DNA of 35,240 nucleotides. Origin: Paraglaciecola sp. GTDB taxonomy: Bacteria > Pseudomonadota > Gammaproteobacteria > Enterobacterales > Alteromonadaceae. Shown one piece after another: positions 2,400 through 28,903 of the stretch. A model generated the notes under the pieces. It was not told where the DNA came from. It did not search any database and worked only from the letters and a program-made list of their open reading frames with translations. Position 1 is the stretch's first letter. The number at the start of each line of letters is the position of its first letter. The position numbers and the translations under genes were made by a program. Location: NCBI RefSeq assembly GCF_030730205.1, contig NZ_JANQVQ010000258.1:1-35240 (forward strand). Reading direction: 5' to 3'.

Positions 2400-2408
2400 G
2401 AGTTACAA

Positions 2409-9559: not shown

Positions 9560-9565
9560 ACGTCT

Positions 9566-13409: not shown

Positions 13410-14210
13410 TTACTTTGCTCTGCAAGTCGCTGTTGTGGGAAAGTGTAGGTCTTTGGAGTGAAAATTAAGAGACTCAGTAAACTCTCCGCTATCAATATAA
13501 GCCTGTAATTGTTGGTCAATGATCGTTTTAACCGACTGCATATCCCGACGAATGACGAAAGACAAGGGCACAGCACTTGTTGGCGTCGGTGATTGATAAA
13601 TAGTAACAGTACAAAACTGGGCGTCTGAAAAGGTCAACGCTGCATTGTAGTTATTCATGACAGCATAATCACAGCGGCCTTTCGCCAACATAGCCGCCAT
13701 TGCAGTTTGATTACTTGAATCCACTCTAATCAGGCTTTGTTGCTGAAAGAAAGGCGCCAATCCGGTATACACAAAACCAGTGCGGGTACATATTCGTTTA
13801 TGCTTTAGCGACTCAAGAGAAAAATTTTCAGAAAATGGGCGTAAACCATATAAATATGACTGGTGCTGCATAATAGGCATACTCGATATTAAATTTTCAC
13901 TATTAGCAAACCAATTGGTATTCGCTAATAAAATATCGATTTTGCCCTCGTTTAAAAACTGCTCACTTCGTGTTCGATTAGAATCGACAAAATTTGCTCT
14001 CAGCAGGTTTTTTCGTGCAGTAAAAGCAAAAAAGTCAGCCACTAAACCGTGGTAACGCTGACCTTCATTATCAAAATACGCATAGGGGCGTGAACCCGGA
14101 GAGTTAACAGCGAAGGTCAAGGTCTTAATTTGTTCGGCGACAACTTCTTTACCGGTTAAGATTGACCCGCAAAGTGCGATACACCCTATCAATATTATTC
14201 TTCTGTACAA
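13410..14210 (-). CDS. Periplasmic solute-binding-type protein (SBP_bac_3-like)
   Basis: Protein of 266 residues with a signal peptide (RRIILIGCIALCGSIL core, cleavage near VVAEQ), followed by a type-3 extracellular solute-binding fold: TLTFAVNSPGSRPYAYFDNEGQ opening region, GKIDILLANT near 95-105, KHKRICTRTGFVYTG near 140 and GRCDYAVMNNYNAAL near 180. No ABC permease or ATPase is adjacent, so it may be an orphan binding protein or sensor, as is common in Alteromonadales. The start codon is TTG, supported by a near-perfect AGGAGG at 14215-14220. The ligand is unknown; polar amino acids are typical for the family. Confidence 0.78.
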   Translation of the reverse strand: MYRRIILIGCIALCGSILTGKEVVAEQIKTLTFAVNSPGSRPYAYFDNEGQRYHGLVADFFAFTARKNLLRANFVDSNRTRSEQFLNEGKIDILLANTNWFANSENLISSMPIMQHQSYLYGLRPFSENFSLESLKHKRICTRTGFVYTGLAPFFQQQSLIRVDSSNQTAMAAMLAKGRCDYAVMNNYNAALTFSDAQFCTVTIYQSPTPTSAVPLSFVIRRDMQSVKTIIDQQLQAYIDSGEFTESLNFHSKDLHFPTTATCRAK

Positions 14211-14411
14211 CGTTCCTCCTTAAACCACATCATTACGACTAAAACGGATAATAACCAAAAAGCTAAAATTAGCCGCTAATTTTTACCTAATTTGTGTTTA
14301 ACCGCTGATTTCCTGTTCAATCGGCTAAAATGGCTTATTTTAGGGCCATGTATAGCAGCACTAAGCTGCTACTTGCTGAGTAATCGTGGTCTCAGACAAG
14401 TAGAAGTAACA

Positions 14412-15281
14412 CTAACACTCTTGCGCCTTTTGTATGGTTAACTTCCCATCCACATGGATATCCCGTTGCGGGAAGGCAATACAAATGTCGTGCTCATTAA
14501 ATAGCTCATCTAAACGGTAACGAATGTTGCTACGGATCATGCGTAGATGCCCTTCAACACTCGCATTCATCCAAAAATACACCACAAACATGAGGGCGTT
14601 ATCACCAAAATCATCAAAAATGACGACGGGTGCTGGTGTGGTTAACACGTCTTGTTGTTCTGCCACGGCTTGGGCAATTAACTCAGCCACCTTACGACAC
14701 GGCGAGCCATAAGCCACGCCCACACTTACTGTTGTGCGCGTCATATTATCTACCAGAGTCCAATTGACCACGGTATTTTCTAATAGCACACTGTTGGGTA
14801 TCATCATGTGCACGCCATCAGTACGGCGAATGCGGGTCGAGCGAGTATTAATAGCTTCAACATTGCCCTTCACATCACCCACTTCTAAAAAGTCACCGAT
14901 GCGGATCGGACGCTCCCACATTAAGATCCAACCACTGATGAAATTGTTAATGATATTTTGCGCCCCAAAGCCAAAACCAATAGCCACCGCACCCGACAAG
15001 AATGCAAAGGCGGTAATCGGTACGTTAATTAAATCGAGGGTAGTGATAAATAACGCTAAAAAGGCCAGGATAAAGAGGATACGTCTAACTAAATGCACAA
15101 CATCAGGCGCAACACCTTTACTGCGCATGCGAGTAGTGATTAATTTAATGGTCCAGCTGATCAGCAAATAACCAATAAACAAAGCGGTGGGCATGAGCAA
15201 AAGATCGGCGAGGGAAATCGCTTTGTCTTGAACGTTAAATAAGGGTTCGTTAAAAAAGGCGATAATTTCAGTTAGGTTCAT
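14412..15281 (-). CDS. Small-conductance mechanosensitive channel, MscS family
   Basis: Inner-membrane channel of 289 residues, close to E. coli MscS (286). Two N-terminal helices (about 20-50 and 65-90) precede the pore helix with the glycine/alanine pattern FLSGAVAIGFGFGAQNIINNF (95-115 region). The beta domain follows (PIRIGDFLEVGDVKGNV, TRIRRTDGVHMMIPN), then the C-terminal alpha/beta domain. It releases solutes on hypo-osmotic shock. It lies 58 bases downstream of dld on the same strand; I see no functional link. A 7-bp hairpin (14353-14371) lies beyond its stop but lacks a T-run. Confidence 0.92.
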   Translation of the reverse strand: MNLTEIIAFFNEPLFNVQDKAISLADLLLMPTALFIGYLLISWTIKLITTRMRSKGVAPDVVHLVRRILFILAFLALFITTLDLINVPITAFAFLSGAVAIGFGFGAQNIINNFISGWILMWERPIRIGDFLEVGDVKGNVEAINTRSTRIRRTDGVHMMIPNSVLLENTVVNWTLVDNMTRTTVSVGVAYGSPCRKVAELIAQAVAEQQDVLTTPAPVVIFDDFGDNALMFVVYFWMNASVEGHLRMIRSNIRYRLDELFNEHDICIAFPQRDIHVDGKLTIQKAQEC

Positions 15282-15339
15282 GGTTGTCTCAGTGTTCTGC
15301 AGTCAGTGTTAAGCATAGCCTCAAATTCTGACACGATAT

Positions 15340-17040
15340 TTATACTTGGCAGCTGCAGTTACGCTGCTGGCGATCCGTCTTGCCAATGCCGGGATTAAAA
15401 CTATTGGTAGGGTCAAGCTGGTGATAAAATTCTCTTAAGCTCTGCTCAGCCTCATACAAATGCCCCACGTTATGTTCTGCGGGGTATTTGGCTGCACGTT
15501 CATTTAAGAGCTTTAGCATGTATTGTTTGACTTTTTTCGCCTCCACACCCTTTTTCAAAATGTAATCTTGATGAAAGACGTGACAGAAAAAATGCCCATA
15601 GTAGAGTTTTTTATCGATTATCTGATTAAGGTCAGGTGGCAGTGTTTCTAACCAGTCGATATCATTGCGTCGCAGCGCGATATCCAATGATAACAACTCG
15701 CCCACCGAATCTTGATGCATCACTTGATATCGCATGGCTGCGCCCGCTGCGGCAAAACGATGCAATAAGGCGCTGGCGCCTTCGGTGGCATCACATTCGA
15801 AATAGTCACCTTGATGTTGCTGAAAAAAACGCGCTAAGTGAGCTTGCGCCTCAGCAATACCGAGGTCACTCATTTTTAGAATTAAATGATGCTCGTATTT
15901 ATCCCGAAATTGCAGCATTCGTTTAGGTAAATGCTGTGGAAACGCTCGCCCAATGAGTTGCATTACTTTGTCAGTAAGGTGGCCAGGCAACCACGGTAAG
16001 TCCTTAAGCCAGCCATCGATTCGAGCTTTTAAGGTAAACATAGCAGGTAAGCGGTCTGTACCTAAATGTTTCACGCTTAAAAATGTATCTTTGCCATACT
16101 TGGCGGAAATATCAAAAATATCTCGGTGCAAGTATTCACCCACCTCAGGTAAGTGACGATAATGTTGCAATATGTCCCGGCGTAATTGACCTAGAACAAG
16201 CGGGTCATTGCTACCAATGTAAAAAACCCTTTCTTGTTTGGCCATGGCAAAGGTATCTAAACGCACGGCAAATACAGCTAATTTACCTGCACAACCGCTG
16301 GCTTCAAATAAACGTCTTGGGTCTGCATTAAAACGGCTTGGTGAGTTCTCGTTTACCCCTCTAACTCGCTCCTGATACTCTTGATCAGAGGCCAAGGCCA
16401 CTCCTTTTTTTAAATTTGTGGTTGCAAACTTACCGGCCATTAAATTCTGTAATATCTCTTCCGGTTCATTGCCTAGCTCGATGCCTAGGTGATTAACTAA
16501 CAGCAATTCTCCTCGCTCGTTAATCCGCGCAAATAAGGCCAATTCTGTGTAGGCAGGGCCGCGTTTTATCAGTGCGCCGCCTGAGTTATTCGCAATACCG
16601 CCAACCACTGATGCACCAAGGCAAGAAGAACCAATTACCGAGTGTGGCGCTCGTCCTAGTGGTTTAAGTTTCTTTTCTAAACTAAACAAGGTTGTACCCG
16701 GAAAACTGATTACCTGTTGTCCTTGTTCAAGTAACACTATTTGGTCCATGGCGAGAGTATTAATGACCACAACAGGGCGGTCGTAATCATCACCACTTGG
16801 CGTTGATCCCTCGGTTAACCCCGTATTAGCCGCCTGCATAATAATAATGGCCTTGTACTCAACACAGGCTTTTAATACACGATAATAGCTAAGCAAATCT
16901 TGAGGCAGCACCACGGCTAAGGCAGTGCCGCCACCAGATCGCCAACCCAAACGATATGGGCGCGATTTTTTTTCATCACTTAAAACAAACTGCTGACCAG
17001 CAATGGATTGCAGCTGTTGTAATAATAGAGAATGTGGCAT
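15340..17040 (-). CDS. dld: Quinone-dependent D-lactate dehydrogenase
   Basis: Membrane-associated FAD enzyme that oxidises D-lactate to pyruvate and passes electrons to quinone. Its 566 residues align along the whole of E. coli Dld (571). Visible matches are the FAD-binding segment (QAANTGLTEGSTPSG, PHSVIGSSCLGASVVGG, NNSGGALIKRGPAYTE), the membrane-binding/cap region (YHRD-like EYLHRDIFDISAKYGKDTF) and the C-terminal KLYYGHFFCHVFHQDYI and DPTNSFNPGIGK. The ATG follows an AGGA motif that is part of a 13-bp palindrome TTTCCT-G-AGGAAA (17049-17061). It lies downstream of the DUF2126 operon hairpin and so is probably its own transcription unit. D-lactate could come from MurNAc recycling (MurQ), but no such gene is in the window. 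Confidence 0.96.
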   Translation of the reverse strand: MPHSLLLQQLQSIAGQQFVLSDEKKSRPYRLGWRSGGGTALAVVLPQDLLSYYRVLKACVEYKAIIIMQAANTGLTEGSTPSGDDYDRPVVVINTLAMDQIVLLEQGQQVISFPGTTLFSLEKKLKPLGRAPHSVIGSSCLGASVVGGIANNSGGALIKRGPAYTELALFARINERGELLLVNHLGIELGNEPEEILQNLMAGKFATTNLKKGVALASDQEYQERVRGVNENSPSRFNADPRRLFEASGCAGKLAVFAVRLDTFAMAKQERVFYIGSNDPLVLGQLRRDILQHYRHLPEVGEYLHRDIFDISAKYGKDTFLSVKHLGTDRLPAMFTLKARIDGWLKDLPWLPGHLTDKVMQLIGRAFPQHLPKRMLQFRDKYEHHLILKMSDLGIAEAQAHLARFFQQHQGDYFECDATEGASALLHRFAAAGAAMRYQVMHQDSVGELLSLDIALRRNDIDWLETLPPDLNQIIDKKLYYGHFFCHVFHQDYILKKGVEAKKVKQYMLKLLNERAAKYPAEHNVGHLYEAEQSLREFYHQLDPTNSFNPGIGKTDRQQRNCSCQV

Positions 17041-17156: not shown

Positions 17157-19388
17157 TTATTGTCTGCGCAAATCAAGGGTGTAAAGTAAGCGCACAGATG
17201 GCGGTAAATCCCTAACAGTGGCTTCTGAACCAACTAAGTCTGAGCGGTCGATAAGTCGTTCACCGACCCTTGCTCGCGCTTCTTGCTGGTTGCTCGGTAA
17301 ACCATCATATTTTTCGCCCCATAATTTCCAGTTCACATAATCAAAGGCATGCACAACTTTATTGCTTGCCTGTTCAATGATAAGAATATTAAGGGGTGAA
17401 TGCGCAGTAATATGGGGTTGCAGCCCCCAGGGATTATCAAACAAGCGATACCGAATCCCCGCTACAGCTGAATGCTCAGAGACCTGTTGGAGGGGTATGC
17501 GAATACCGTTCACACTGGCAATCAAACCGGCCTGAGCAAAATCGCCTTCGGCCAATAATTCTAAGCGATCGGTTGTACTGTCAACTACTCGTCCTGTTCC
17601 TTCGTGTTCGCCCATAACTGGCCAAGGTTCAATCGCATGACGCAGGGTCCACTTAATTGCACCGCTGCTAAATTGAGTCACTAGCGGAAATCGAAAATCA
17701 AGTTGAGCTTCGAACACATTCTGCTCGAATGAAAATCCATGCTCATTTAAGTAAGCGATGACTGAGTGCAAATCCTGACGTAAGAAATAAGGCAGCATAA
17801 ATTTGTCATGTAAGCTCTCACGCCAATCAATCAGAGGCGAGGTGAAAGGCTTTTCTGCAAAACAGGCCGCCAAAGCACGCAACAACACGTTGGCTGCAAG
17901 TAATGGCTCAGGCTCGGGTACCATTTCAAACGCACGAAACTCGATTAAGCCGCTCCTGCCATTGCCCGTATTAATGTTATAAAATTTATCTACACTCAAC
18001 TCAGCGCGATGGGTATTACCGTTCCAATCCATAAGCAAGTTACGTAACAGCGCATCGATCATCCATGGCTGACCCGGTTGACTCATTTCTTCAATCCCTT
18101 TGAGGGTTATTTCCAGCTCATAGGGCAGTTCATGGGCGCTCTCGTCGACACGCGGAGCTTGACTTGAAGGACCAATGAACAAGCCACTAAATGCATAAGA
18201 CAGGGAGGGATGCTGCTGTAAAAACCGCAAAAAACTGCTCAATAAATTTGGGCGTTCGATAAAGGGATTATGATCTAAGTCTGGCCCACCCATTACAATG
18301 TGTGCCCCCCCGCCCGTGCTTACTTGGCGACCACTGAGTTGGTATTTGAGCGCGCGCATCCCAATAGATTCTGCACTTTGATACATGCCACGGATCACAC
18401 GCTCAAAGTCAGGCCAGTTATCTGCAGGAGGTAAATTCACTTCCAACACGCCTGGGTCAGAGGTGAGTGCCATCGATTCTAAATCTTCATCACGAGGCGG
18501 GGTGTAACCCTCTAAGCGGATAGGTGGCAGATTAAGCTTAACGGTCAGTTTTTCAATCGTTCTTACCAGCTCGGCAAAACAAGCAAAGCTGGGCAAAGGA
18601 GGAAGAAAAACAATCAGTTCCTGATCTCTTAATTCTACCGAAAGTCCACGACGAATAGCGCCTTCGGGTAAGCGATGCAAGGGTAAACGCAAACCTACAG
18701 GGCTGTCACCAGGATATAAAGTGAGGTCATCGCCATCTGGCAAGTTCCATTCGCCGGTTGACCACTTTTCATCGTCATGATCTAGCGGTAATACCCAGCC
18801 CGCGGGTTCAAAGTAGCTTTGCCATTTTTGATCGAGGTCATCCGGTAAAGGCCGTGAAATAAAAGCGCGTTTGCTGCGACTGAAGCGTGGTAATAAGTGG
18901 GTGGTTTCATCAGAACCAATGGACTTAAGTTTAGCTTCCAAATCTTCGTAAGCGGGTAAACTCGTATCTGCTAGACCTAACTCTGCTGCCAAATCAGCAA
19001 TAAATTGTTTTGGCATGGCAGGATCACCCGGTGCTATGGTTTCTTGCCCTAAGCGCAATCGATTAAGGTCATTCCATAAGGGGGCCTGGCTACGAGATTT
19101 ATAGATGCCTATTTGCCATCGAGGCAAGGGTTCACCCGGATAGTGTTTACCAAACGATTGCATCACCACCGCCCCTTTAAACAGGGTCGACGTTAATTCT
19201 TGCGCCATTAACCGTGCAAATTTTAGCTTCTGTGGCCCTAATGCGGCTAAATTCCACTCTGGGGCGGTCGTGTCATAAGGCACAAAAGTAGGCTCGCCCC
19301 CCTGAGTCAAAATCAAATTTTGCGCAGCGAGTTTAGCGTCTGCCAGACATCCTTGGATATTGATATTTTCTTTCACGTTTTTTTCCAC
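17157..19388 (-). CDS. DUF2126 putative amidoligase
   Basis: Protein of 743 residues covering the DUF2126 domain, which Iyer and colleagues assigned to glutamine-synthetase-fold COOH-NH2 ligases. Conserved blocks are GGEPTF (30-35), PEWN and ALGPQK (43-54), HYPGEPLPRW (82-91), DPGVLEVNLPP (311-321), STGGGAHIVMGGPD (357-370), LSYAFSGLFIGPSSQAPRVDE (396-416) and the GNTHRAELSVDKFYN and LIEFRAFEMVPEPEP segments. It is expected to form an amide bond on an unknown acid. In many bacteria this domain is fused behind a transglutaminase domain; here the two are separate, in the same frame, divided by one TAA. The start is GTG (19388) with no visible Shine-Dalgarno; GTG at 19376 is an alternative. It is the last gene of the operon. 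Confidence 0.9.
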   Translation of the reverse strand: MEKNVKENINIQGCLADAKLAAQNLILTQGGEPTFVPYDTTAPEWNLAALGPQKLKFARLMAQELTSTLFKGAVVMQSFGKHYPGEPLPRWQIGIYKSRSQAPLWNDLNRLRLGQETIAPGDPAMPKQFIADLAAELGLADTSLPAYEDLEAKLKSIGSDETTHLLPRFSRSKRAFISRPLPDDLDQKWQSYFEPAGWVLPLDHDDEKWSTGEWNLPDGDDLTLYPGDSPVGLRLPLHRLPEGAIRRGLSVELRDQELIVFLPPLPSFACFAELVRTIEKLTVKLNLPPIRLEGYTPPRDEDLESMALTSDPGVLEVNLPPADNWPDFERVIRGMYQSAESIGMRALKYQLSGRQVSTGGGAHIVMGGPDLDHNPFIERPNLLSSFLRFLQQHPSLSYAFSGLFIGPSSQAPRVDESAHELPYELEITLKGIEEMSQPGQPWMIDALLRNLLMDWNGNTHRAELSVDKFYNINTGNGRSGLIEFRAFEMVPEPEPLLAANVLLRALAACFAEKPFTSPLIDWRESLHDKFMLPYFLRQDLHSVIAYLNEHGFSFEQNVFEAQLDFRFPLVTQFSSGAIKWTLRHAIEPWPVMGEHEGTGRVVDSTTDRLELLAEGDFAQAGLIASVNGIRIPLQQVSEHSAVAGIRYRLFDNPWGLQPHITAHSPLNILIIEQASNKVVHAFDYVNWKLWGEKYDGLPSNQQEARARVGERLIDRSDLVGSEATVRDLPPSVRLLYTLDLRRQ

Positions 19389-19394
19389 TAATAA

Positions 19395-20264
19395 TTAAGA
19401 TTCAATGATATGGGCTTCAATACAAACACGCATTTCTTTAAAAAGTTTAGCATCGCCAAGGTAACTTCCGCGAATTGGCGTAGCTTGTTCTGGATTTCTA
19501 GTTGTCGCCACAGGTACATGTAAACTTGCCGCGAGAATGCCGCTGGTGGGATCAAATCCCTTCCAGCCAGCACCAGGAAGGTAGATTTCGGCCCACGCAT
19601 GGGTCGCATTGGCCGCAATATCTACCGCTTCGTTGTCTGAACTACATAGGTAACCACTGACAAATCGAGCAGCCAGCCCTAAGTGCCGCGCTGCTTCCAT
19701 CAGCAGCAATGCAAAGTCTCTACACGTACCACTGCCTAATGCCAATGTTTGAGCTGGACTTTGCACACCAGGCTCTTCTCTGCGGCCATAGTTAAAGTGG
19801 CTGGCTATATGTTCGTTCAATGCCAGTAAAAACGGTAAGGTTTCTGTTTTTCCATTAGGCTCGAGGCGAGGTCCTAGCCACTCGTCAAGTACTGCTTGAT
19901 CTGCGGGGTATTGACGAATTAAAAACGGGGCTAAATCGATGAGGTCTTCACCCTGATAATCAAAAGGAAGAAGGTTCGCGTAAAGATCCAAAGAGAAGTT
20001 AAACGGATTAATATTAAACTGTTCGACCGTGTATTCTGATGTAATCCGTAACTCCTCAGTTTTGCCGGTAAAATAAACCTGTGCGACCGAATTGTTAAAC
20101 ACATCATGTTTCCAACTCACGTTATGTGCCGGATAAATTTCAAGCTTTTCTGTACAAATTCGTAGCCCATGGCTTTCAACCGGCCGTAGCATAAGCTGAT
20201 GGTTGGTCAGTTCCACCGGACGTTCGTAACAGTAAATATTGACATGGCTTATCTTTAGTTTCAT
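19395..20264 (-). CDS. Transglutaminase-like cysteine protein
   Basis: Protein of 289 residues: an N-terminal beta domain (1-100, starting LKISHVNIYCYERPVEL, typical of Transglut_N) and a transglutaminase-core domain. The triad is Cys181 (GSGTCRDFALLLME), His222 (NATHAWAEIYLPGAGW) and Asp238 (FDPTSGILA). There is no signal peptide, so it is cytoplasmic. Bacterial members of this operon type are predicted to hydrolyse or exchange amide or peptide bonds made by the associated ligases. The stop is 6 bases before the DUF2126 GTG, in the same reading frame. Upstream is a 75-base gap with a possible internal promoter. No strong ribosome-binding site is visible at the ATG. Confidence 0.92.
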   Translation of the reverse strand: MKLKISHVNIYCYERPVELTNHQLMLRPVESHGLRICTEKLEIYPAHNVSWKHDVFNNSVAQVYFTGKTEELRITSEYTVEQFNINPFNFSLDLYANLLPFDYQGEDLIDLAPFLIRQYPADQAVLDEWLGPRLEPNGKTETLPFLLALNEHIASHFNYGRREEPGVQSPAQTLALGSGTCRDFALLLMEAARHLGLAARFVSGYLCSSDNEAVDIAANATHAWAEIYLPGAGWKGFDPTSGILAASLHVPVATTRNPEQATPIRGSYLGDAKLFKEMRVCIEAHIIES

Positions 20265-20280
20265 GACTTATCTTAAGTGA

Positions 20281-20308
20281 ATTGTACGCTAACAAATTAA
20301 CGCGTTAA
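20281..20308 (-). promoter_or_regulatory. Candidate internal promoter overlapping a 12-bp palindrome
   Basis: Read on the minus strand, TTAACG (20303-20308) and TACAAT (20281-20286) are separated by 16 bases and match the -35 and -10 consensus at four and five positions. The -35 is part of a perfect palindrome TTAACGCGTTAA (20297-20308). A second inverted repeat, CTCAAC-N8-GTTGAG (20316-20335), lies just upstream. The start of transcription would be about 10 bases before the transglutaminase ATG, so the promoter is uncertain even though the palindromes are plain. Confidence 0.25.
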
Positions 20309-20339
20309 CTAAAGGCTCAACAACGTTACGTTGAGATGA

Positions 20340-21437
20340 TCAAATATTGGCTAACTCATTCAAAATACTCAAAAATGCTTTTACCGATCCTAAGGGTGCA
20401 GACTCAGACATGGTGTGGTAACCACTTGAGGGTATTTGCAAAGTGGTACCGTCTACCAAGCCGTTTGAAGCAGCAATAATCCGGCCCATCTCAGTGGATC
20501 CGTATGACGAAAGTGGCTCGCCTTTTTGTTCGTGAATACGATTCTGAGCGGCAACATATTCATCTTTAAATTGATAACTCACACCAAGACGCTGACAAAT
20601 TTTTACCAGCTCTTGATTCAATTCTTCATTAAAATCAGCGTTAGCGTCTTTATTGCGCAGTACTAGTTGCTGTTGTTTCGCTGTGTTTAAGTCGGGATAT
20701 GGGCTGGTATCAACAACAATCAGATTGTTAGTTGAGCCACCAAACCGCCTAAACCACTCAAGCAGATAGCGCCAACTTTTTCCTGCCTCTTCTTGCGCAG
20801 TAAAAAACGCCGTACCTTCAAAACCATTTTCAAACAGGTGAACCAATGCGGCCGTGGTGAGCACATTATCGAGCTGCCCAACCAAAGCATGTTCGGTAAT
20901 ATTAAGTTTATCGGTAAAGGCTACTGGCGTACCCGCGACTAAATGTTCAAGCCCATCAACTTGAAAAATTAGGTTATTTCGAAACTCACAAATGTATGCG
21001 CCAGTGATTTTTCCGCGACCGCGATACGCCCCGGACCAAGGTTCGAAGGCATACACGCTTTCTGCATCAAAGCGATCAACAATTTTTTGCATTAAAGACT
21101 CGCTGACCGAATTACCCAGCAAATCAGAGCGTGCACCTGCAACAAATGCGGCATATTGGAATTCGTTCGGCCCAGTACATACCAAGCCATGACGGTCTAT
21201 ATGCGCTGAAAACATGCGCGAATCTGGTTTACTTCCCTGAGCCACCAGCAAACCTTCATACCAAGTTACTTTGGCTCCGCGTTCTTCTAATTCTCGTTGC
21301 AATACCCGAAAAAAAGAATGTTCTGCGCCAGTTACACTCGGGCTTCGCATTAAGGTGCGCAACAGCTCAATAAACGACTCGGGCAGGTCTGATTGACAAT
21401 TTACTATTTGCTCTAAGGCCTTTTGGCTTGTATTCAC
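20340..21437 (-). CDS. M42/M28-like zinc aminopeptidase
   Basis: Protein of 365 residues with the clan MH co-catalytic two-zinc site: H79-x-D81 (SAHIDRHG), D190 (GQLDNVLT), E216-E217 (TAQEEAG), D243 (VVDTSPYPD) and H341 (SSGYHTMSE). All ligands are present, so it should be active. Order and spacing fit M42 glutamyl aminopeptidase-like enzymes, including an inserted domain (about 90-180). There is no signal peptide, so it is cytoplasmic. The start is GTG, 6 bases after the gss stop, with a poor ribosome-binding site, suggesting translational coupling to gss. In this operon it may trim amino-terminal residues from an amide-linked product or from peptides released by Anbu; this is inference. Confidence 0.85.
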   Translation of the reverse strand: MNTSQKALEQIVNCQSDLPESFIELLRTLMRSPSVTGAEHSFFRVLQRELEERGAKVTWYEGLLVAQGSKPDSRMFSAHIDRHGLVCTGPNEFQYAAFVAGARSDLLGNSVSESLMQKIVDRFDAESVYAFEPWSGAYRGRGKITGAYICEFRNNLIFQVDGLEHLVAGTPVAFTDKLNITEHALVGQLDNVLTTAALVHLFENGFEGTAFFTAQEEAGKSWRYLLEWFRRFGGSTNNLIVVDTSPYPDLNTAKQQQLVLRNKDANADFNEELNQELVKICQRLGVSYQFKDEYVAAQNRIHEQKGEPLSSYGSTEMGRIIAASNGLVDGTTLQIPSSGYHTMSESAPLGSVKAFLSILNELANI

Positions 21438-21443
21438 AGTGTA

Positions 21444-23333
21444 CTACTCATCTAAAAAGGATAAATCATCATCTATTCGTAATGCCATGCAATCGCTGTC
21501 TTTACCAATAATCATTGAACGATCGACTCTTACACCGCTGCCGGCGTAATTACCTGCAGCCGTAAACGTACAAACTTGCACATAATATTTACCCACTTTG
21601 GGCAAAGGAAAAAGCTGTTGGTATATTTGGGTTCTGTCACCGAAAGCGCCGCCCTTATCAGCCAAGACCTTATTATCTTTATCGATAAGTTGAATATTGG
21701 CTCCACAACGCCCTACGATGGGTTTGACCACATAACCGCTGGCTTCAAGTTCAGGACTGAGTTCAAAACTGGTATTGAGCAATAAAGGATGGTTTGGAAA
21801 AAGTGACCACAACACAGGTAGTATCGCCTTATTGCTGGGGATGAGGGTCCACAGAGGTTCAAACACCATGATTTCTTGGCGCAGCAATACATCGCTCAAA
21901 TTAGGTACGCTGCCAGGAGGACGAATTTTATCGGTGATCGCTTGTTGCTCATCTTGTTCCGTGCGCAGTTGATCAAGAGCGGTCTCCCAGGCCCATGTTT
22001 TCCATACCCACTTAACCTTGTTACCGTGGGTATCAACAATATCACCCTGCTCATTCCAACTTAGGGAAGACAAACCAACCACCCGCACGCATTTATGACC
22101 GGCAGCCTCAATAGCAGAAAGCATAAATAGGGCATGGTAGTCTTCTTCAGGATCAGTATCTTGCAGAACGTGTACTAAGCCCTCTACTTCACTTTCGCGC
22201 CACGCTTTGACTAATTCAGCAAATAACTCGGCCCCTGCATCTTCGCCATGTTTAAGACCCAAATGTTTGGCCCATTTACCTTGGACTTTGCCTGTTTCCA
22301 TGTAACAAGAGGCTGAATCGCAGTTGTATTCGTAGACTTTAAGACCTTGCTCAGACAATGAAAAATCAAATCGGCTGGTAATTAATTGATTCAGTCGGTT
22401 ATCCCACGATTGCCTAATGCGGGGCAAAATTGAGTCTGGTAGACCAAAAGAATACAGTAATTCATCATGTTGTAATACGTAGTCAGTTGCATGCATAAAT
22501 AAGCCATGCAGCTCATCCGTGGCTGATTCAAGGGCTTCTTGTGCACTTTGTGACATCATGTAATAACTAAGGTGATCGTCTTCAACCGAAGTAAGCCAAT
22601 GCCCTTTCATCATATCTACATAAGCCGCTTCATCATCATTAGCTATGTTGAGCCACGGTTTAAAGGCATGGGAAGAGGAGTGCGCGGTAGCCGGTTTAAG
22701 GTTAAACAATTCTGTTTGTTCAGGCTCCGACAACTCTGCATGGGTAGTATCGGCTGTTTGAATCATCCAACCTAATATGGTGGCATCACTGAAAGAGCAT
22801 TCGATCCAAAAGTCGCCTTCACGCCCTATTTTTACCTTAATTTCGCGAGAATAATCTCGGCCATCAGGCCATGGCACAAAGTCCATATTTTGTTCAACAA
22901 TACGCACATAGCTATCGCTTACTTCAGTGATTATTGCGACGTGACCGGTATTAACAAATTCGCCACCTTCTTCCCAAATCAACAAACTGCCCACTTCAGG
23001 ATGACGCTGGGCACCATTTTTAAAGGCCTGCAAAGGCAGGAGTTCATTACTGGCGATTTCTCTAACACTACGTAAATTAAAAATTTCATAGGCCATGGAA
23101 ACATCATTAAAAATGTAACCTTGATTAACATACAACCAGCGACGAGCAAACTCGACACATTGCCATTTATACCCCATGTAGATACCGTCAAAATAACTTC
23201 GATAAGCACTGCGATTGGGGTAAAGGGCTTGATCAGCGGTGTCATAATCGCTGGAATATGAAGCAACTCCGCCGGGCGCAGTGCCCAGCAAAGTGCCAAA
23301 CGGCGTAGAACCTAGTTCTAATTTAGGCGGCAT
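21444..23333 (-). CDS. gss: Bifunctional glutathionylspermidine synthetase/amidase
   Basis: Protein of 629 residues matching E. coli Gss (619) end to end. The N-terminal CHAP amidase has catalytic Cys59 (YKWQCVEFARR) and His131 (NTGHVAII), the same numbers as in E. coli. The C-terminal ATP-grasp synthetase (about 210-615) has DFSLSEQGLKVYEYNCDSASC, VWKTWAWETA, VFEPLWTLIPSNKAILPVLWSLFP (in parts), VKPIVGRCG and QIYQQLFPLPKV. The enzyme joins glutathione to spermidine using ATP and also hydrolyses the amide. The ATG follows AAGGAAATC. It sits between the alpha-E gene and the M42-peptidase gene, which is an unusual place for gss and ties glutathione/polyamine amides to the alpha-E/ATP-grasp system. 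Confidence 0.96.
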   Translation of the reverse strand: MPPKLELGSTPFGTLLGTAPGGVASYSSDYDTADQALYPNRSAYRSYFDGIYMGYKWQCVEFARRWLYVNQGYIFNDVSMAYEIFNLRSVREIASNELLPLQAFKNGAQRHPEVGSLLIWEEGGEFVNTGHVAIITEVSDSYVRIVEQNMDFVPWPDGRDYSREIKVKIGREGDFWIECSFSDATILGWMIQTADTTHAELSEPEQTELFNLKPATAHSSSHAFKPWLNIANDDEAAYVDMMKGHWLTSVEDDHLSYYMMSQSAQEALESATDELHGLFMHATDYVLQHDELLYSFGLPDSILPRIRQSWDNRLNQLITSRFDFSLSEQGLKVYEYNCDSASCYMETGKVQGKWAKHLGLKHGEDAGAELFAELVKAWRESEVEGLVHVLQDTDPEEDYHALFMLSAIEAAGHKCVRVVGLSSLSWNEQGDIVDTHGNKVKWVWKTWAWETALDQLRTEQDEQQAITDKIRPPGSVPNLSDVLLRQEIMVFEPLWTLIPSNKAILPVLWSLFPNHPLLLNTSFELSPELEASGYVVKPIVGRCGANIQLIDKDNKVLADKGGAFGDRTQIYQQLFPLPKVGKYYVQVCTFTAAGNYAGSGVRVDRSMIIGKDSDCMALRIDDDLSFLDE

Positions 23334-23360
23334 AGATTTCCTTGTGATAAGAAAAATAAC

Positions 23361-24293
23361 CTATTGTTGATGATAAAAATACGTTTCGTTTATCTTGTCA
23401 AAAATCGTGTTTAAGCCCAACTGCATATCATCAATAAAGTCATGCAACTTTTCTTGGATCAAGGATTGCGGGTTGGCCTCCAACAAATGATTTTCGACAA
23501 CCCGAATTTGCATAATCACATCTTCGTGATTTGGTAGTTGCTTTAAACAGTGCTCAACTTGCTGCAAGGTATGCAGTAACGAACGTGGAAAGCGGTTTTC
23601 TAGCAGCAAAAACTTCAATACATCAGGACGACGAATACGCAGGCGCACTTCTCGACGATACATTTGATAAGCGGTGAGTGATTTAAGTACGCTCATCCAT
23701 TGTAAATTTTCAAAGGCCGATTGTGAGGTTTCAGTATCTTGTAGTAGAGACGCAGAGCGCACATCGATAATCCGTGTGGTCATATCTGCTCGTTCAATAT
23801 TTCGGCCAATACGCAAAAACGCATACCCTTCATCATGGGTCATGGTGCCAGCCAATATACCGGTAATCGTTTGATTACATTGAATAATTTCACTTAAAAA
23901 TGCATAACGAGAACGGCGCGCTTGGGCTTTTTGACAATTTTCTTTGGCGTATGAGTATAACTCATTGATTTTTTCCCACGCCTCGCGAGGAATAATTTCA
24001 CGAATAGTACGGGCGTTTTCACGAGCGGCGCTTAAAGCACTGATAATCGAACCGAGGTTTTTTCGGTCCGCCACCATAAAGTTAATCACATTGCGCTCCA
24101 CCGCTTCTTTGTGATTTGAATAAAACAACTCACGATAGGACAGAATATCGACAATAGGCTCCCAACCCAGAGAGATACTTTTGGGCAAATCAAGGAGAAG
24201 ATTGGAGTTAACATTAATAATACGCGCGGTATTTTCAGCACGCTCTAAATATCTGCCTAACCAACAAAGGTTATTTGCGACTCTTGACAACAT
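23361..24293 (-). CDS. Alpha-E domain protein (DUF403)
   Basis: All-helical protein of 310 residues beginning MLSRVANNLCWLGRYLERAENTARI (shown in part), the hallmark of alpha-E domains; RNIERADMTTRIIDVR near 170 and ENRFPRSLLHTLQ near 240 are further family blocks. Its function is unknown. It always accompanies circularly permuted ATP-grasp proteins, and in many bacteria it is fused to their C-terminus. Here it is a separate gene 2 bases after the ATP-grasp stop, with a strong Shine-Dalgarno (GGAGGGG) inside the ATP-grasp gene. It is probably a partner subunit of that ligase. Confidence 0.92.
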   Translation of the reverse strand: MLSRVANNLCWLGRYLERAENTARIINVNSNLLLDLPKSISLGWEPIVDILSYRELFYSNHKEAVERNVINFMVADRKNLGSIISALSAARENARTIREIIPREAWEKINELYSYAKENCQKAQARRSRYAFLSEIIQCNQTITGILAGTMTHDEGYAFLRIGRNIERADMTTRIIDVRSASLLQDTETSQSAFENLQWMSVLKSLTAYQMYRREVRLRIRRPDVLKFLLLENRFPRSLLHTLQQVEHCLKQLPNHEDVIMQIRVVENHLLEANPQSLIQEKLHDFIDDMQLGLNTIFDKINETYFYHQQ

Positions 24294-24295
24294 AA

Positions 24296-25750
24296 TTAAG
24301 ACCCCTCCATGTCAACAATCCAGGTGTCTTTACTGCCGCCACCTTGAGATGAATTTACTACTGTTGAGCCTTTAATCATGGCTACACGGGTTAAACCACC
24401 GGTTGTTACTTTTACGTCTTTACCACTTAAAATAAAAGGCCGTAAATCTAAATGTCGAGGTTCTACTTTGGTATCGACCATCGTCGGCGCCGTCGATAAA
24501 ATTAACATGGGCTGAGCCACATAGTTGCGGGGATCTTCTTGTATCAGTTTACGAAATTTATCATGCTCTTTCGCACTTGAATGAGGACCAATTAACATGC
24601 CATAACCACCGGATTCATTGGCCGGTTTCACTACCATAGAAGCAATGTTTTCTAATACGTAAGCACGTTCGTCTTCATTCACGCATTTATAAGTCGGTAC
24701 GTTAGGTAAGATTACCTCTTCATTCAGATAGTATTTGATAATGTCAGGCACAAACGCATACACCACCTTATCATCTGCTACGCCTGAACCTGGTGCATTT
24801 GCCAAGGCCACATTGCCCGCTTTCCATGCTCGCATAATGCCTGGAACGCCGAGTGTCGATTCAGGATTGAAGACCTCAGGGTCAAGAAACCAATCGTCAA
24901 TTCGACGATACACCACATCTACCCGCGACAAGCCATTGATGGTACGCATGTAAACACAGTCGTCTTCACCCACCACTAAATCACTGCCTTCGACTAATTC
25001 AGCGCCCATTTGCTGGGCCAGATAAGCATGTTCAAAATAGGCGGAATTATAAATACCTGGGGTCAACACCACGATTTCTGGTTCAGCAATATCCCGAGGC
25101 GACATAGCGGCCAGCATATCGTATAAATCAGAAGAGTAATCATCTACGGGCATGATATTCAGTTTTTCAAACATTTCAGGAAAAACTCGTTTCATTACCT
25201 GGCGATTTTCTAGCATGTATGAAACACCAGAGGGGACTCGTAGGTTATCTTCAAGCACATATACCGTACCCTTGTTGTCTCTGACTAAATCAGAACCACA
25301 AATATGCGCCCAAACCCCTAAAGGCGGGCTAAAGCCTTTACATTCGTTTAAGAAATTTTTTGATTTATCCAGTAGGTCGGCAGGAAAAACACCGTCTTTT
25401 ATAATGTTTTGGTCATTGTATAGGTCATCAATAAACATGTTTAAGGCTTTAACACGCTGCTTTAAACCTACTTCGATGTTTTCCCATTCTTTTTTATCAA
25501 TTAATCTAGGAATAATGTCAAAGGGCCAGGCGCGGTCAATAGAGCCTTCTTCATCGTTGTAAACTCGAAAAGTAATACCCATGACTTGAATGGCTGAATC
25601 AGCACCGGCTTTATACTCCAAAATTTCAGCGTCAGTTAGATTGCGCAAATACTCACACAAATCTTCTGCATAAGGCCTTGGTTTGCCACTTGCCCGAAGC
25701 AACTCATCGTGCAAATTTGCCACTTTGTAATTTCCCCATCGAATCGCCAT
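24296..25750 (-). CDS. Circularly permuted type 2 ATP-grasp ligase
   Basis: Protein of 484 residues (DUF404/DUF407 family) predicted to ligate an amine to a carboxylate using ATP. Typical blocks are GITFRVYNDEEGSIDRAWPFDIIPR (in parts, 56-80), VYVLEDNLRVPSGVSYMLENR (165-185), LTPGIYNSAYFEHAYLA, YRRIDDWFLDPE, ANAPGSGVADDKVVYAF, VVKPANESGGYGMLIGP and HLDLRPFILSG. I chose ATG at 25750 over GTG at 25756, because AAGGGG lies at the right distance only from the ATG. It is the first gene of a six-gene minus-strand operon and is divergent from Anbu. A promoter candidate lies about 30 bases upstream. Confidence 0.93.
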   Translation of the reverse strand: MAIRWGNYKVANLHDELLRASGKPRPYAEDLCEYLRNLTDAEILEYKAGADSAIQVMGITFRVYNDEEGSIDRAWPFDIIPRLIDKKEWENIEVGLKQRVKALNMFIDDLYNDQNIIKDGVFPADLLDKSKNFLNECKGFSPPLGVWAHICGSDLVRDNKGTVYVLEDNLRVPSGVSYMLENRQVMKRVFPEMFEKLNIMPVDDYSSDLYDMLAAMSPRDIAEPEIVVLTPGIYNSAYFEHAYLAQQMGAELVEGSDLVVGEDDCVYMRTINGLSRVDVVYRRIDDWFLDPEVFNPESTLGVPGIMRAWKAGNVALANAPGSGVADDKVVYAFVPDIIKYYLNEEVILPNVPTYKCVNEDERAYVLENIASMVVKPANESGGYGMLIGPHSSAKEHDKFRKLIQEDPRNYVAQPMLILSTAPTMVDTKVEPRHLDLRPFILSGKDVKVTTGGLTRVAMIKGSTVVNSSQGGGSKDTWIVDMEGS

Positions 25751-25780
25751 GAACACCCCTTATGGATTGTTTTAATTTTT

Positions 25781-25808
25781 AGTATACGGATAACTCAATT
25801 GTTTTAAA
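25781..25808 (-). promoter_or_regulatory. Candidate sigma70 promoter of the ATP-grasp operon
   Basis: On the minus strand TTTAAA (25803-25808) and TATACT (25781-25786) are 16 bases apart; the -10 matches five of six consensus bases and the -35 four of six. Transcription would begin near 25774, about 24 bases before the ATG, leaving room for the AAGGGG ribosome-binding site. Confidence 0.42.
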
Positions 25809-25881
25809 GCGGTATTCATGCCAAAAATAATAATTGTATTTATAGCCACGCCCAGACAAAATACCGCCCTTACGTGTTCAA

Positions 25882-25912
25882 TGTTGGGTCACTATTGAGC
25901 CCAACAATAGTG
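25882..25912 (+). promoter_or_regulatory. Two overlapping, mutually exclusive inverted repeats ahead of Anbu
   Basis: TGTTGGG (25882-25888) can pair with CCCAACA (25900-25906), and CACTATTG (25890-25897) can pair with CAATAGTG (25905-25912; loop AGCCCAA). The two stems share bases 25905-25906 and interleave, so only one can form in RNA. The second ends 16 bases before the TTG start of Anbu and next to its AGAGAG ribosome-binding site. It could be an RNA switch or a compound operator; the sequence alone does not decide. Confidence 0.45.
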
Positions 25913-25928
25913 CAAAGAGAGATTAACG

Positions 25929-26675
25929 TTGACTTACTGTTTAGCCATAAATGTAAACAAAGGTATGGTTTTTGCGTCTGACTCGCGTACCAATGCGGGT
26001 GTCGATTATGTTGCAACCTACAGCAAGATGACCACTTTTGTATTTCCAGGAGAGCGAAGTTTTGTCTTACTGACTTCGGGCAGTTTAGCCACTTCTCAAG
26101 CCGTGATTAATGCGATTAAGACTGATATAGATGACCCTGATGCAGAGTTTAATATGCGCAAAGGCAACTACTTGCACGAAGTGGCTAAATATATTGGCAA
26201 GCTGAGTCAACGGGAACAACGACAGCACGCTGCTGCGTTAGAAAGGTCGAACTCTAGTGCGGAATCAAGTTTTATATTAGGAGGGCAAATTGCCGGTCAA
26301 CCGTGTGAGATTTTTTTAATTTACCCCCAAGGCAATTATATTGCGGCATCACCTGAGACTCCATATTTACAAATAGGCGAAAACAAATACGGTAAACCTA
26401 TTTTAGATCGGATTATCGCTGCCAATACTTCACTAGAAGATGCAGCGCGTTGCGCTATTGTTTCTTTAGACTCAACCATTAGAAGTAATATTTCTGTAGG
26501 CCCGCCAATCGAGTTAGCGATTCATACAAATAATCACTTTGAAGCACCTTATCGCACGTCACTTAATACCAATAGTGTGATGTACAAGTCTGTGCAAAAA
26601 CATTGGAATGAAGGATTAAAGCGTGCTTTCAATAAACTGCCACGCTTTGAATGGGAAAAACCATCTACTAAATAA
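25929..26675 (+). CDS. Anbu, proteasome-type protease (ancestral beta-subunit)
   Basis: Protein of 248 residues in the Ntn-hydrolase family of the 20S proteasome beta subunit and HslV. It begins M-TYCLAINVNKGMVFASDSRTNAG (shown in part), the diagnostic Anbu start: removal of Met exposes Thr as nucleophile, and with that Thr as 1 the next catalytic residues fall at Asp17 and Lys32, near the Asp17/Lys33 of proteasomes. The start codon is TTG, with AGAGAG 7 bases upstream; the next Met (13) would delete the nucleophile. Anbu is typically linked to ATP-grasp, alpha-E and transglutaminase genes, as here, but it is transcribed divergently from them. It likely forms a ring-like or helical oligomer that degrades or processes peptides; the substrate is unknown. 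Confidence 0.94.
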   Translation: MTYCLAINVNKGMVFASDSRTNAGVDYVATYSKMTTFVFPGERSFVLLTSGSLATSQAVINAIKTDIDDPDAEFNMRKGNYLHEVAKYIGKLSQREQRQHAAALERSNSSAESSFILGGQIAGQPCEIFLIYPQGNYIAASPETPYLQIGENKYGKPILDRIIAANTSLEDAARCAIVSLDSTIRSNISVGPPIELAIHTNNHFEAPYRTSLNTNSVMYKSVQKHWNEGLKRAFNKLPRFEWEKPSTK

Positions 26676-26677
26676 GG

Positions 26678-27781
26678 TTAACTCGGACTGATTTGACTGA
26701 CTTCGTCGTTTTGCATAATGACTTTATGTACAAACCGTAACTTATTTAGTGCTGAAATTGATATAACAAAGGGGTAGGCATCATCCAGCCCCATACTGCG
26801 ATTTAAGCCATTTAATACTTGTGTTAAACGGCACCAATCATTAAATAAATGGGTGAAACTGGTAGCGGTGTAAATATAGTCATGTTGACCGCCAGCAACT
26901 AAGGGGTTGGCAACTTTGTTGCCAGAAATACTAAAATCATAATCGCTGGCTGTTTCTAAGGTATCTACCATATGTAAGTAATGCGCCCAGGTTTCAGCCC
27001 AATCTTCCCAAGGGTGCATGCTGGCATACGCGCTGACCCAAACGTTTTGCCAATCTTTTTTAGGTCCTTGTTTGTAATAATCATTTAATGCTTTAGCGTA
27101 ATCCATCCGTTCATCGCCAAACAATGTTCTAAATTCTTCAATGTGCTGACTGCTTTTAACTAAGCGATCCCAATAATAATGACCAGACTCATGTCTGAAG
27201 TGACCAATTAATGTGCGATAACTTTCGTTTAAACTTTCCCGTACCTGATGTCGAATACTGGTCTGCGCTTCCTTGACATTAATCGTGATTATACCGGCAG
27301 CATGACCTGTTGAAACATAATTTTTAACGGTTAACTCGTTACCAAATTCATCGGTTATTTCGTCTTCTAAAAACTCAAACCCCAAGCCTTTTTGCGGTTC
27401 TTGCGCACGGTTTTGTACCGGTAGCTTCAGCTTGTACAACGTATAGAGTAGGCGGCGTTTAGCTTGTTCTAGGTTATACCAAAGTAACTTATTACCTTTA
27501 ACTTCTAATTTGGGGGTCGCTTCATTTAATTGACAGGCAGAACAAAACTCATGTTGGTCATCAATATGAATCATCCAATTGCAAACTTGGTGGGTCAGAT
27601 AATTTTTGCAGGGACGATATATTTGGCCGTTGGCAGAAGACTGCAGCTGGCCAGAACGGTTAGTGGTAAATGCGCTAAGTTGCAACTCATCAGATATAAA
27701 GCCGAGTAATAAGCCACAAACAACACATGTATTGTTAGCAAAATAAAGTTTATTACCGCATTGACAAACAAAAGTTTTCAA
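26678..27781 (-). CDS. Zinc-binding metallopeptidase, Peptidase_Mx (PF15887-type)
   Basis: Protein of 367 residues with an N-terminal zinc ribbon (C6-x-C8 and C19-x2-C22), further Cys pairs at 58, 67, 80 and 83, and a peptidase domain with H197-E-S-G-H201 (HFRHESGHYYWD) and the partner block PWEDWAETWAHYLHMVDTLE near 250-275. No signal peptide. I chose the TTG at 27781: it gives the family-typical start MKTFVCQCG and has AGGGA 7-8 bases upstream. An ATG at 27850 would add 23 residues without a ribosome-binding site, and that stretch contains a hairpin (27800-27814). The gene meets Anbu tail to tail with 2 bases between stops. The family has been seen next to ligase/peptidase clusters but is uncharacterised. 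Confidence 0.87.
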   Translation of the reverse strand: MKTFVCQCGNKLYFANNTCVVCGLLLGFISDELQLSAFTTNRSGQLQSSANGQIYRPCKNYLTHQVCNWMIHIDDQHEFCSACQLNEATPKLEVKGNKLLWYNLEQAKRRLLYTLYKLKLPVQNRAQEPQKGLGFEFLEDEITDEFGNELTVKNYVSTGHAAGIITINVKEAQTSIRHQVRESLNESYRTLIGHFRHESGHYYWDRLVKSSQHIEEFRTLFGDERMDYAKALNDYYKQGPKKDWQNVWVSAYASMHPWEDWAETWAHYLHMVDTLETASDYDFSISGNKVANPLVAGGQHDYIYTATSFTHLFNDWCRLTQVLNGLNRSMGLDDAYPFVISISALNKLRFVHKVIMQNDEVSQISPS

Positions 27782-27982
27782 ACAAATCCCTCGGCTAACT
27801 CGCTGGTTCAGCGAACTCAACATAATGAGCCATTTGATAGAGCATAGCAATGCTATTTATAGTGTTATAAACTCATCTTGTAGTATGAATTTTAATCACA
27901 AAATATGAAAAAACAGATCGATTAAACTCACTCTACTAAGATAAGATGTCACTCTAATGAACGGATGCATTTCTAGGAAGCC

Positions 27983-28903
27983 ATGAATTTAAATCATACG
28001 TTGCCACGTTCCACGTTATTGTTGGTTGAGTCCAATAAAACGACGCTGGATAGCTTACGCGCAATGTTTGAGCAAAAATACATTGTAGAAGTTGCCGAGG
28101 ATGGCCAGCAAGCAGTAAATATAATTTACGACCTTGATATTGATTTGATTTTGAGCGCAGTGGATGCCGCCACTATCAGCGGACAAGAACTGTGCGTCTT
28201 GGTCAAAAGCAATCCATTGACCCAGCATATCCCTATCATTCTATTGACGCAATCTTCGACTATTGAAGAAGAACAAGCCTGCCTCGAAATAGGCGCAATT
28301 GATTACATCAATACACACGTACCACCGCAAATTATCTACTCTCGTGTGCAAAATCACATGCGATTAGTCGAGCAACAGAAAGTGTTAGAATATGTATCGT
28401 GTACCGATGGTTTAACCGGCTTATCCAATAGAATGCAACTCGACACCACCCTTAATCGTATTTGGCATACGGCTATTCGCGGGGGGCACTCTATCGGTTT
28501 ATTAATAATAGATATCGATCATTTCAAAGACTACAACGATCAATTTGGTCATATAGAGGGTGACGAGTGCCTGAAAAAAGTCGCCACGGCGATTGCGCAG
28601 ACCAAATCGCGAGAAGAAGACTTTGCTGCTCGATTTGGGGGCGAAGAGTTTGTCTTACTTCTGCCCTACACCAACTTATCCGGCGCCAAACGGGTAGCCA
28701 AGCAACTTCTTAATAATGTGAGAAAGTTAAAAATCCCAGCCGCCAAAAGCGCTAACGCTGAACATGTCACCGTCAGTGTTGGCGTGGCTGCAATTACGCC
28801 AAAGTTCGACCCCCTGCAAACTATCAGCCCGATAGAATTGATTAACCAAGCAGATAAAAATCTGTTTAAAGCAAAACGCGCGGGGCGAGATCGCCTTTGT
28901 TAA
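27983..28903 (+). CDS. Diguanylate cyclase with degenerate receiver domain
   Basis: Protein of 306 residues, receiver (10-125) plus GGDEF (140-305). The cyclase half is intact: RFGGEEF (217-223), metal and substrate residues in IIDIDHFKDYND and an allosteric I-site R210-E-E-D213 five residues before GGEEF, so it should make c-di-GMP with product inhibition. The receiver lacks its phosphorylation residues: the acidic pair is E16-S17, the acceptor Asp is replaced by Ala59 (LILSAVDAATISG), and the conserved Lys is Thr111 (YINTHVPP). It is therefore not a standard two-component output. AGGAAG precedes the ATG. Its stop is one base from that of yrfG. Confidence 0.9.
   Translation: MNLNHTLPRSTLLLVESNKTTLDSLRAMFEQKYIVEVAEDGQQAVNIIYDLDIDLILSAVDAATISGQELCVLVKSNPLTQHIPIILLTQSSTIEEEQACLEIGAIDYINTHVPPQIIYSRVQNHMRLVEQQKVLEYVSCTDGLTGLSNRMQLDTTLNRIWHTAIRGGHSIGLLIIDIDHFKDYNDQFGHIEGDECLKKVATAIAQTKSREEDFAARFGGEEFVLLLPYTNLSGAKRVAKQLLNNVRKLKIPAAKSANAEHVTVSVGVAAITPKFDPLQTISPIELINQADKNLFKAKRAGRDRLC

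Follow-up and report, generated by a model that had tools for sequence, protein, structure and literature searches.

A gene cluster in a stretch of 35,240 nucleotides (nt) from Paraglaciecola sp. (contig NZ_JANQVQ010000258.1 of assembly GCF_030730205.1; the genome that carries it has 5.18 Mb) is a variant of the known Anbu operon that is joined to a gene for glutathionylspermidine synthetase/amidase (Gss). The whole stretch is called the window in the following. The cluster comprises genes for a circularly permuted type-2 ATP-grasp ligase (CP-ATP-grasp), the helical protein Alpha-E, Anbu (ancestral beta subunit) and a Peptidase_Mx metallopeptidase, for Gss and an M42-like aminopeptidase (M42), and for a transglutaminase-like protein (TG) and the putative amidoligase DUF2126. 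It is possible, and this is the reading that we tentatively prefer, that this Gss-equipped variant is a locus for making and breaking peptide-amine bonds, in which the known glutathionylspermidine cycle has been joined to the core of the operon.

The four-gene Anbu operon and an amidoligase hypothesis have been published (PMC5666114, PMC6376114). Both papers credit the operon to Valas and Bourne 2008 and Iyer et al. 2009, and PMC6376114 describes it as four genes in conserved order. The window resembles it in that CP-ATP-grasp is directly followed by Alpha-E, with Anbu adjoining and a TG protein nearby; it differs in the divergent orientation of Anbu, in the position of TG beyond extra genes and its pairing with an unfused DUF2126, and in the presence of Gss, M42 and Peptidase_Mx. 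No publication linking Anbu or Alpha-E with glutathionylspermidine was found in a search that had most subscription journals outside its reach and did not try the other names of the families.

Linkage was followed in three samples (G### are genomes, with G000 the genome holding the window; L### are fetched loci). Of 22 genomes of the genus, 11 have Alpha-E, represented by the window and 10 fetched loci. From 147 genomes of the family, 17 Alpha-E loci outside the genus were chosen by hand, several because their genomes carry Gss, which makes this set non-random. The class sample has 369 genomes, 106 of them with Alpha-E; 40 loci were fetched from 40 of these, drawn from higher-scoring unfused rows and thus also non-random, and 36 were analysable (L115, L122, L136 and L139 had no Alpha-E frame in the gene calls). 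Neighbours were counted within 6 kb of Alpha-E, and the class figures are BLAST-based and therefore lower bounds. Gss was called full-length when the GSP_synth match lies in a frame of more than 600 amino acids (aa); this leaves out a 445-aa match of G407 in the family sample, and a 606-aa frame of G324 in the class sample, which scores like the short kind, was also excluded.

Comparison with relatives splits the cluster into three modules: the core, Gss with M42, and TG with DUF2126. The core consists of CP-ATP-grasp and Alpha-E, usually with Peptidase_Mx and often with Anbu: in the genus, Peptidase_Mx lies near Alpha-E in nine and Anbu in seven of the 10 fetched loci; the 17 family loci include 12 with Peptidase_Mx, nine with Anbu, one with Gss and none with M42; the 36 class loci have CP-ATP-grasp (33), Anbu (22), Peptidase_Mx (10), TG (7) and TG-DUF2126-like proteins (10), and neither Gss nor M42 was found near Alpha-E in any of them. 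Gss and M42 adjoin the core in three of the 11 genus genomes that have Alpha-E (the window, G007 and G016). The window is the only locus where TG and DUF2126 are contiguous with the core; in G016, M42 is followed by the D-lactate dehydrogenase gene (Dld), and from there it is about 4.7 kb to the pair. An initial annotation had treated seven of the genes as a single unit and one complete pathway. Pfam, NCBIfam and motif checks confirmed these seven genes, and the expected active-site motifs are present in the three enzymes that may form amide bonds and in several hydrolases of such bonds, as it had proposed; an eighth gene, the core partner Peptidase_Mx, had been overlooked. The single unit breaks between M42 and TG when relatives are compared, and one pathway of all genes does not agree with the counts above.

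A second operon of Gss and core is present in another genus: G390 has Gss, Peptidase_Mx, ATP-grasp, Alpha-E and Band7 in this order on one strand. In its congener G473, Gss is followed by Band7 with no module between them (identical residues are 290 of 313 for Band7 and 540 of 627 for Gss). A Gss tree of 22 rows unites the three operon copies from Paraglaciecola (99/97) and places G390 with G473 (100/100); in an ATP-grasp tree (17 rows) G390 is nearer to G002, G015 and G439, below the support mark. The best reading of these sequences, short of proof, is that Gss and core were joined twice separately. Gss and Alpha-E are also associated across genomes. Within the genus, Alpha-E is found in 10 of the 12 genomes with Gss and in one of the 10 others (p=0.0019, Fisher test with related genomes treated as independent); the family sample has 41 genomes with Alpha-E, 12 with full-length Gss and nine with both, that is, Alpha-E in nine of 12 Gss genomes versus 32 of 135 others (p=0.0006, or 0.03 without the genus, with relatives again treated as independent).

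One product of the locus is predictable, because Gss scores as a true glutathionylspermidine synthetase/amidase. The initial annotation had called the product of the set unknown, which still holds for the core and no longer for Gss. The protein aligns with E. coli GspSA (2IO7) over residues 10-618 of 629 with 632 bits and keeps both domains (CHAP and GSP_synth). The Cys/His/Glu of the amidase and the metal and ATP motifs of the synthetase are present, with roles that, for residues other than Cys59, we presume. Cys59 of the amidase, its role taken from PMC6272389, is conserved between the two proteins together with its neighbouring motifs. Gss of the window is thus like GspSA in two-domain architecture, equivalog score and active-site motifs, and differs in lying inside a CP-ATP-grasp/Alpha-E locus with an M42-like peptidase. 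The host genome has a gshB-type match and nspC (carboxynorspermidine decarboxylase model, above cut-off), which suggests that it encodes the formation of glutathione and one step on the way to (nor)spermidine. All 22 genus genomes have GSP_synth and 12 the full-length Gss type; in each of the 22 there is a separate GSP_synth match in a frame of 388-431 aa, and these short proteins are probably of the YgiC/YjfC kind. In the class sample, GSP_synth is found in 22 and full-length Gss in three of the 369 genomes. YgiC and YjfC are peptide-spermidine ligases (Pederick et al. 2023, as cited in PMC10948618 and PMC12270671); they share Pfam GSP_synth with the synthetase domain of Gss and are among the fold matches of the CP-ATP-grasp model, and differ in having no amidase domain.

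The predicted structure of CP-ATP-grasp (predicted local distance difference test, pLDDT, 89.2) has 54 PDB matches at E<=0.001, the best of them 3N6X (E 4e-58), titled 'putative glutathionylspermidine synthase' by its depositors. The 50 of these 54 matches that were listed comprise 3N6X, glutathione and homoglutathione synthetases and synthetase-like effectors, Gss, YgiC/YjfC, trypanothione synthetase and the ligase Cp1B, and include no RimK-type enzyme. Characterised enzymes of this fold group join a peptide carboxylate to an amine via an acyl phosphate. For GspSA this reaction is described in PMC6272389, and for the ATP-grasp protein of the Yersinia operon, phosphate release from ATP is reported in PMC6376114.

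The model of Alpha-E is confident and all-helical (pLDDT 92.3); a known fold was considered for it and rejected, as no PDB match reaches E<=0.001. Alpha-E is internally duplicated: residues 12-88 align with residues ~162-244, each half has an ER motif, and the half-versus-half score of 74 was reached by none of 500 shuffles (28.8, standard deviation 4.8). At least two RxxER motifs are present in 39 of 50 aligned homologues. Expected motif residues are found in M42, TG, Peptidase_Mx, Anbu and Gss, with roles that we in part presume. Anbu matched five solved sequences, with 258 bits to a designed and 198-208 bits to natural Anbu proteins, and keeps Thr1, Asp17 and Lys32 (residue roles from PMC6376114). 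Anti-phage defence was considered and rejected: PADLOC gave only one weak match for Alpha-E (20.1 bits, a CARF model) and none for the other seven proteins.

In M42, residues H79, D81, D190, E216, E217, D243 and H341 are invariant in 10 homologues and make up a full candidate two-metal site, of which they presumably are the ligands and base. The protein is distant from solved M42 enzymes, with no solved relative found by phmmer and one weak one by profile. Homologues adjoin Gss in G007 (88%), G016 (89%) and G469 (69%, at a locus without Alpha-E), and RLAN-RimK-like ligases in L054 (70%) and L061 (75%); more distant ones (35-36%) have the order M42-RimB-RimK in L063 and L064, from alphaproteobacterial metagenome-assembled genomes. 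Positions 8953-11433 of L063/L064 thus hold an extra peptidase within a glutamate-ligation operon (Pfam was run on the genes of L063 only). Homologues without an adjoining ligase are found in L055, L056, L057 and L062, and in G445 Gss adjoins an M14/AstE-type zinc hydrolase instead of M42. Across the 369 class genomes the subfamily is present in five plus one fragment; a scan of contigs with the M42 alignment, whose two patterns are narrow, gave only seven loci, including L065 (BLAST only). The pairing of an ATP-grasp ligase with a zinc peptidase is a recurring theme, not a universal one. The Gss-M42 pairs of G469 and Paraglaciecola were also considered as one inherited unit, which the trees do not show.

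TG has the motifs GTCRD, THAW and DPT, which we take to be catalytic. Unlike the TG-DUF2126 fusions known from elsewhere, DUF2126 has no N-terminal transglutaminase domain here; in a comparison with 11 such fusions the invariant residues include E316, H363, R413, D415, E416 and H460, as well as R461, E463, D467, K468, E483 and R485. At positions 19386-19397, the TAA stop of TG is followed by two codons (6 nt) and then, in the same frame, by the GTG start of DUF2126. DUF2126 is present in three of the 22 genus genomes: G016 also keeps the two genes in frame, with a spacer of different length (84% identity for DUF2126, 76% for TG), and G007 has no DUF2126 match. In a TG tree, the window protein is on the side of 13 TG-DUF2126 fusions and outside their clade (branches are long and the bootstrap is unsettled), and groups with seven of 20 standalone TGs, six of them from genus-mates, apart from the other 13. 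A fusion recently split by a stop was rejected; an old unfused form is likelier, because the same unfused in-frame pair is present in G016 and TG lies outside the fusion clade.

The genes of the locus are listed below; all eight proteins pass their Pfam cut-offs. On the minus strand the order is CP-ATP-grasp, Alpha-E, Gss, M42, TG and DUF2126, with gaps of 2, 27, 6, 75 and 6 nt. Anbu is transcribed divergently, and Peptidase_Mx converges on it with 2 nt between them. The terminator- and promoter-like sites in the gap before TG are only suggestive of a transcript break: a scan of the region gave 28 promoter-like sites (shuffles 30.3) and 16 terminator-like sites (shuffles 15.2).

Features of the Gss-linked Anbu locus and their positions in the window
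Feature	Position	Strand	Size and evidence
DUF2126 putative amidoligase	17157-19388	-	743 aa; Pfam PF09899 683 bits, cut-off 27
Transglutaminase-like (TG)	19395-20264	-	289 aa; Pfam PF08379 + PF01841
Weak terminator-like hairpin (20335-20316) and promoter-like hexamers (20308-20281)	20281-20339	-	between M42 and TG
M42-like metallo-aminopeptidase, divergent subfamily	20340-21437	-	365 aa; PF05343 27.1 bits, cut-off 23.2 (distant)
Gss, amidase (CHAP) + synthetase (ATP-grasp, GSP_synth)	21444-23333	-	629 aa; NCBIfam NF007801 equivalog 923 bits, cut-off 882
Alpha-E helical protein	23361-24293	-	310 aa; Pfam PF04168 308 bits
Circularly permuted type-2 ATP-grasp ligase (CP-ATP-grasp)	24296-25756	-	486 aa; Pfam PF14403 558 bits
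Anbu, Ntn-hydrolase fold	25929-26675	+	248 aa; Pfam Proteasome 26.3 bits
Zinc-ribbon + Peptidase_Mx metallopeptidase (HExxH)	26678-27850	-	390 aa; PF15887 337.5 bits + PF10005

Beyond DUF2126, on the same strand, positions 13410-17040 carry three more genes, for Dld, an MscS-type channel and a solute-binding protein with a weak match. Counted from DUF2126 onwards, they are separated by 116, 58 and 201 nt, and the transcript could run on through them. On the other side, Peptidase_Mx is adjoined by a response regulator-GGDEF gene (27983-28903), which is kept in all three genomes with a Gss-linked operon. Farther away are a murein-peptide cluster at 8123-11436 (NlpC/P60 with SH3, an MR/MLE-type enzyme and a sub-threshold YkuD match) and, at 30-3977, a protein of 789 aa that combines Amidase_2, peptidoglycan-binding and beta-lactamase-like domains; another beta-lactamase-like protein follows it. 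In G016, the first three of these genes have homologues directly beyond TG-DUF2126.

Several relatives place Gss or the core near genes that may relate to stress. In the genus, an MscS-type gene adjoins Gss in eight of nine loci outside the operon (two were checked with Pfam). The Alpha-E module of G002 and G015 lies among extracytoplasmic function (ECF) sigma and MscS genes, and the same island holds Gss in G012 and G013, both genomes without Alpha-E. The island is covered by L020/L085/L086 (G002), L066/L083 (G013), L068/L084 (G012) and L021 (G015), and in G002, G012 and G013 also carries RimK and an antiporter-like gene, the latter named by eye. Two published systems offer partial parallels. 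The rlo operon of P. aeruginosa (PMC12239564), genetically tied to hypo-osmotic tolerance, likewise has an ATP-grasp, a transglutaminase-fold protein and a protease together; it differs in its RimK-like ATP-grasp, membrane-bound inactive transglutaminase and secreted aspartic protease. A membrane protein with a transglutaminase fold is also the subject of PMC12096838. Operons of GSP-synthetase-like ligases with PspA, a potassium channel and DUF350 (PMC11237479) share a GSP-type ATP-grasp and a membrane-stress context, and differ in that no PspA was seen here and that Band7 or MscS stand only beside the Gss genes of relatives.

In the mechanism that we tentatively favour, CP-ATP-grasp, with Alpha-E as dedicated partner, would convert a small peptide, probably one similar to glutathione, to an acyl phosphate at its carboxylate and link this to an amine, and Anbu, Peptidase_Mx and the papain-fold TG protein would cut or trim the core product. 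In this lineage, the Gss cycle (glutathione + spermidine <-> glutathionylspermidine) and the M42 aminopeptidase would have been joined to the core: Gss would supply a known conjugate and the core a second one, and peptide-polyamine conjugates would be made and removed together, perhaps under redox, osmotic or envelope stress. That Gss and core may share a product is inferred from their shared locus.

Several findings weigh against this mechanism. The core does not need Gss, as the two are linked in only three of 11 genus genomes and in none of the 36 class loci. The p values for Gss and Alpha-E count kin genomes as independent, the Gss tree leaves the sisterhood of G390 and the Paraglaciecola operon copies open, and the two joinings are deduced from the different gene order and the empty site of the congener. 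hhalign detected no sequence relationship between CP-ATP-grasp and Gss, and the predicted fold that CP-ATP-grasp shares with glutathione and Gss synthetases leaves its substrates unfixed. The Anbu proteins tested in PMC6376114 are reported to have no peptidase or amidase activity. As to the stress setting, BLAST queries at 10 Gss loci from beyond the genus found no MscS-like gene, and MscS lies within 6 kb of Alpha-E in two of 10 genus, one of 17 family and none of 36 class loci.

The genes may also have accreted without shared chemistry, which we regard as only slightly less probable than the preferred reading: Gss-M42 would then be an independent glutathionylspermidine redox unit downstream of the core, sharing its promoter, and TG-DUF2126 a third unit. 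Full-length Gss is indeed unlinked to Alpha-E in seven of 10 genus genomes and six of nine family-sample genomes that have both, M42 has no adjoining ligase in the four loci named above, the 75-nt gap before TG has its terminator- and promoter-like sites, TG-DUF2126 is displaced in G016, and G007 has no DUF2126 match. However, one chance insertion predicts less than what is seen, namely a further operon of Gss and core outside the genus and the co-occurrence of Gss with Alpha-E; a rough estimate, on assumed gene numbers, puts the chance of at least two adjacencies among nine genomes at 8e-5 to 3e-4. A farther-reaching idea, rather unlikely in our estimate, makes a polyamine or glutathionylspermidine the general amine substrate of CP-ATP-grasp/Alpha-E, so that the operon would tag the C-termini, or via TG the glutamines, of stress-exposed peptides or proteins with polyamine-peptide units, and Anbu, Peptidase_Mx and M42 would untag them; if true, lineages with a Gss-linked operon would have the enzyme that makes the donor at this locus as well.

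Protein tagging with Anbu as degrader or deconjugase, in a Pup/proteasome- or ubiquitin-like manner, is an older published hypothesis (reported in PMC6376114 and PMC5666114) and fits a locus that combines a ligase with peptidases and a protein of proteasome fold; the initial annotation had likewise compared the locus with Pup/proteasome logic. We consider it improbable: Anbu was not found near Alpha-E in three of 10 genus, eight of 17 family and 14 of 36 class loci, the 29 open reading frames of the window scanned against Pfam include no AAA+ unfoldase, Pup ligase or depupylase, and PMC6376114 reports no Anbu activity and no stable complex of Anbu with other operon proteins. It is equally improbable that the locus works on short (poly)glutamyl peptides in the manner of RimK/RimB, with core and M42 making and trimming them and Gss incidental. 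RimK/RimB operons likewise pair their ATP-grasp ligase with a peptidase of its own, homologues of M42 neighbour RimB and RimK (L063, L064) or RLAN-RimK-like ligases (L054, L061), and a RimK gene stands ahead of the core in G513 (L102) and is part of the Alpha-E island of G002; yet RimK belongs to another ATP-grasp family, is absent from the listed structural matches of CP-ATP-grasp and has no match among the scanned frames of the window.

For the tentatively preferred joining of the glutathionylspermidine cycle to the core, the Gss linkage offers a definite chemical starting point in the study of a gene set whose marker, Alpha-E, is in 106 of 369 class genomes. Gss joined to the core in two gene orders, together with the fold match of the ligase, leads to a short list of candidate metabolites for mass spectrometry, and Peptidase_Mx and the M42 subfamily can be named as partners for any reconstitution.

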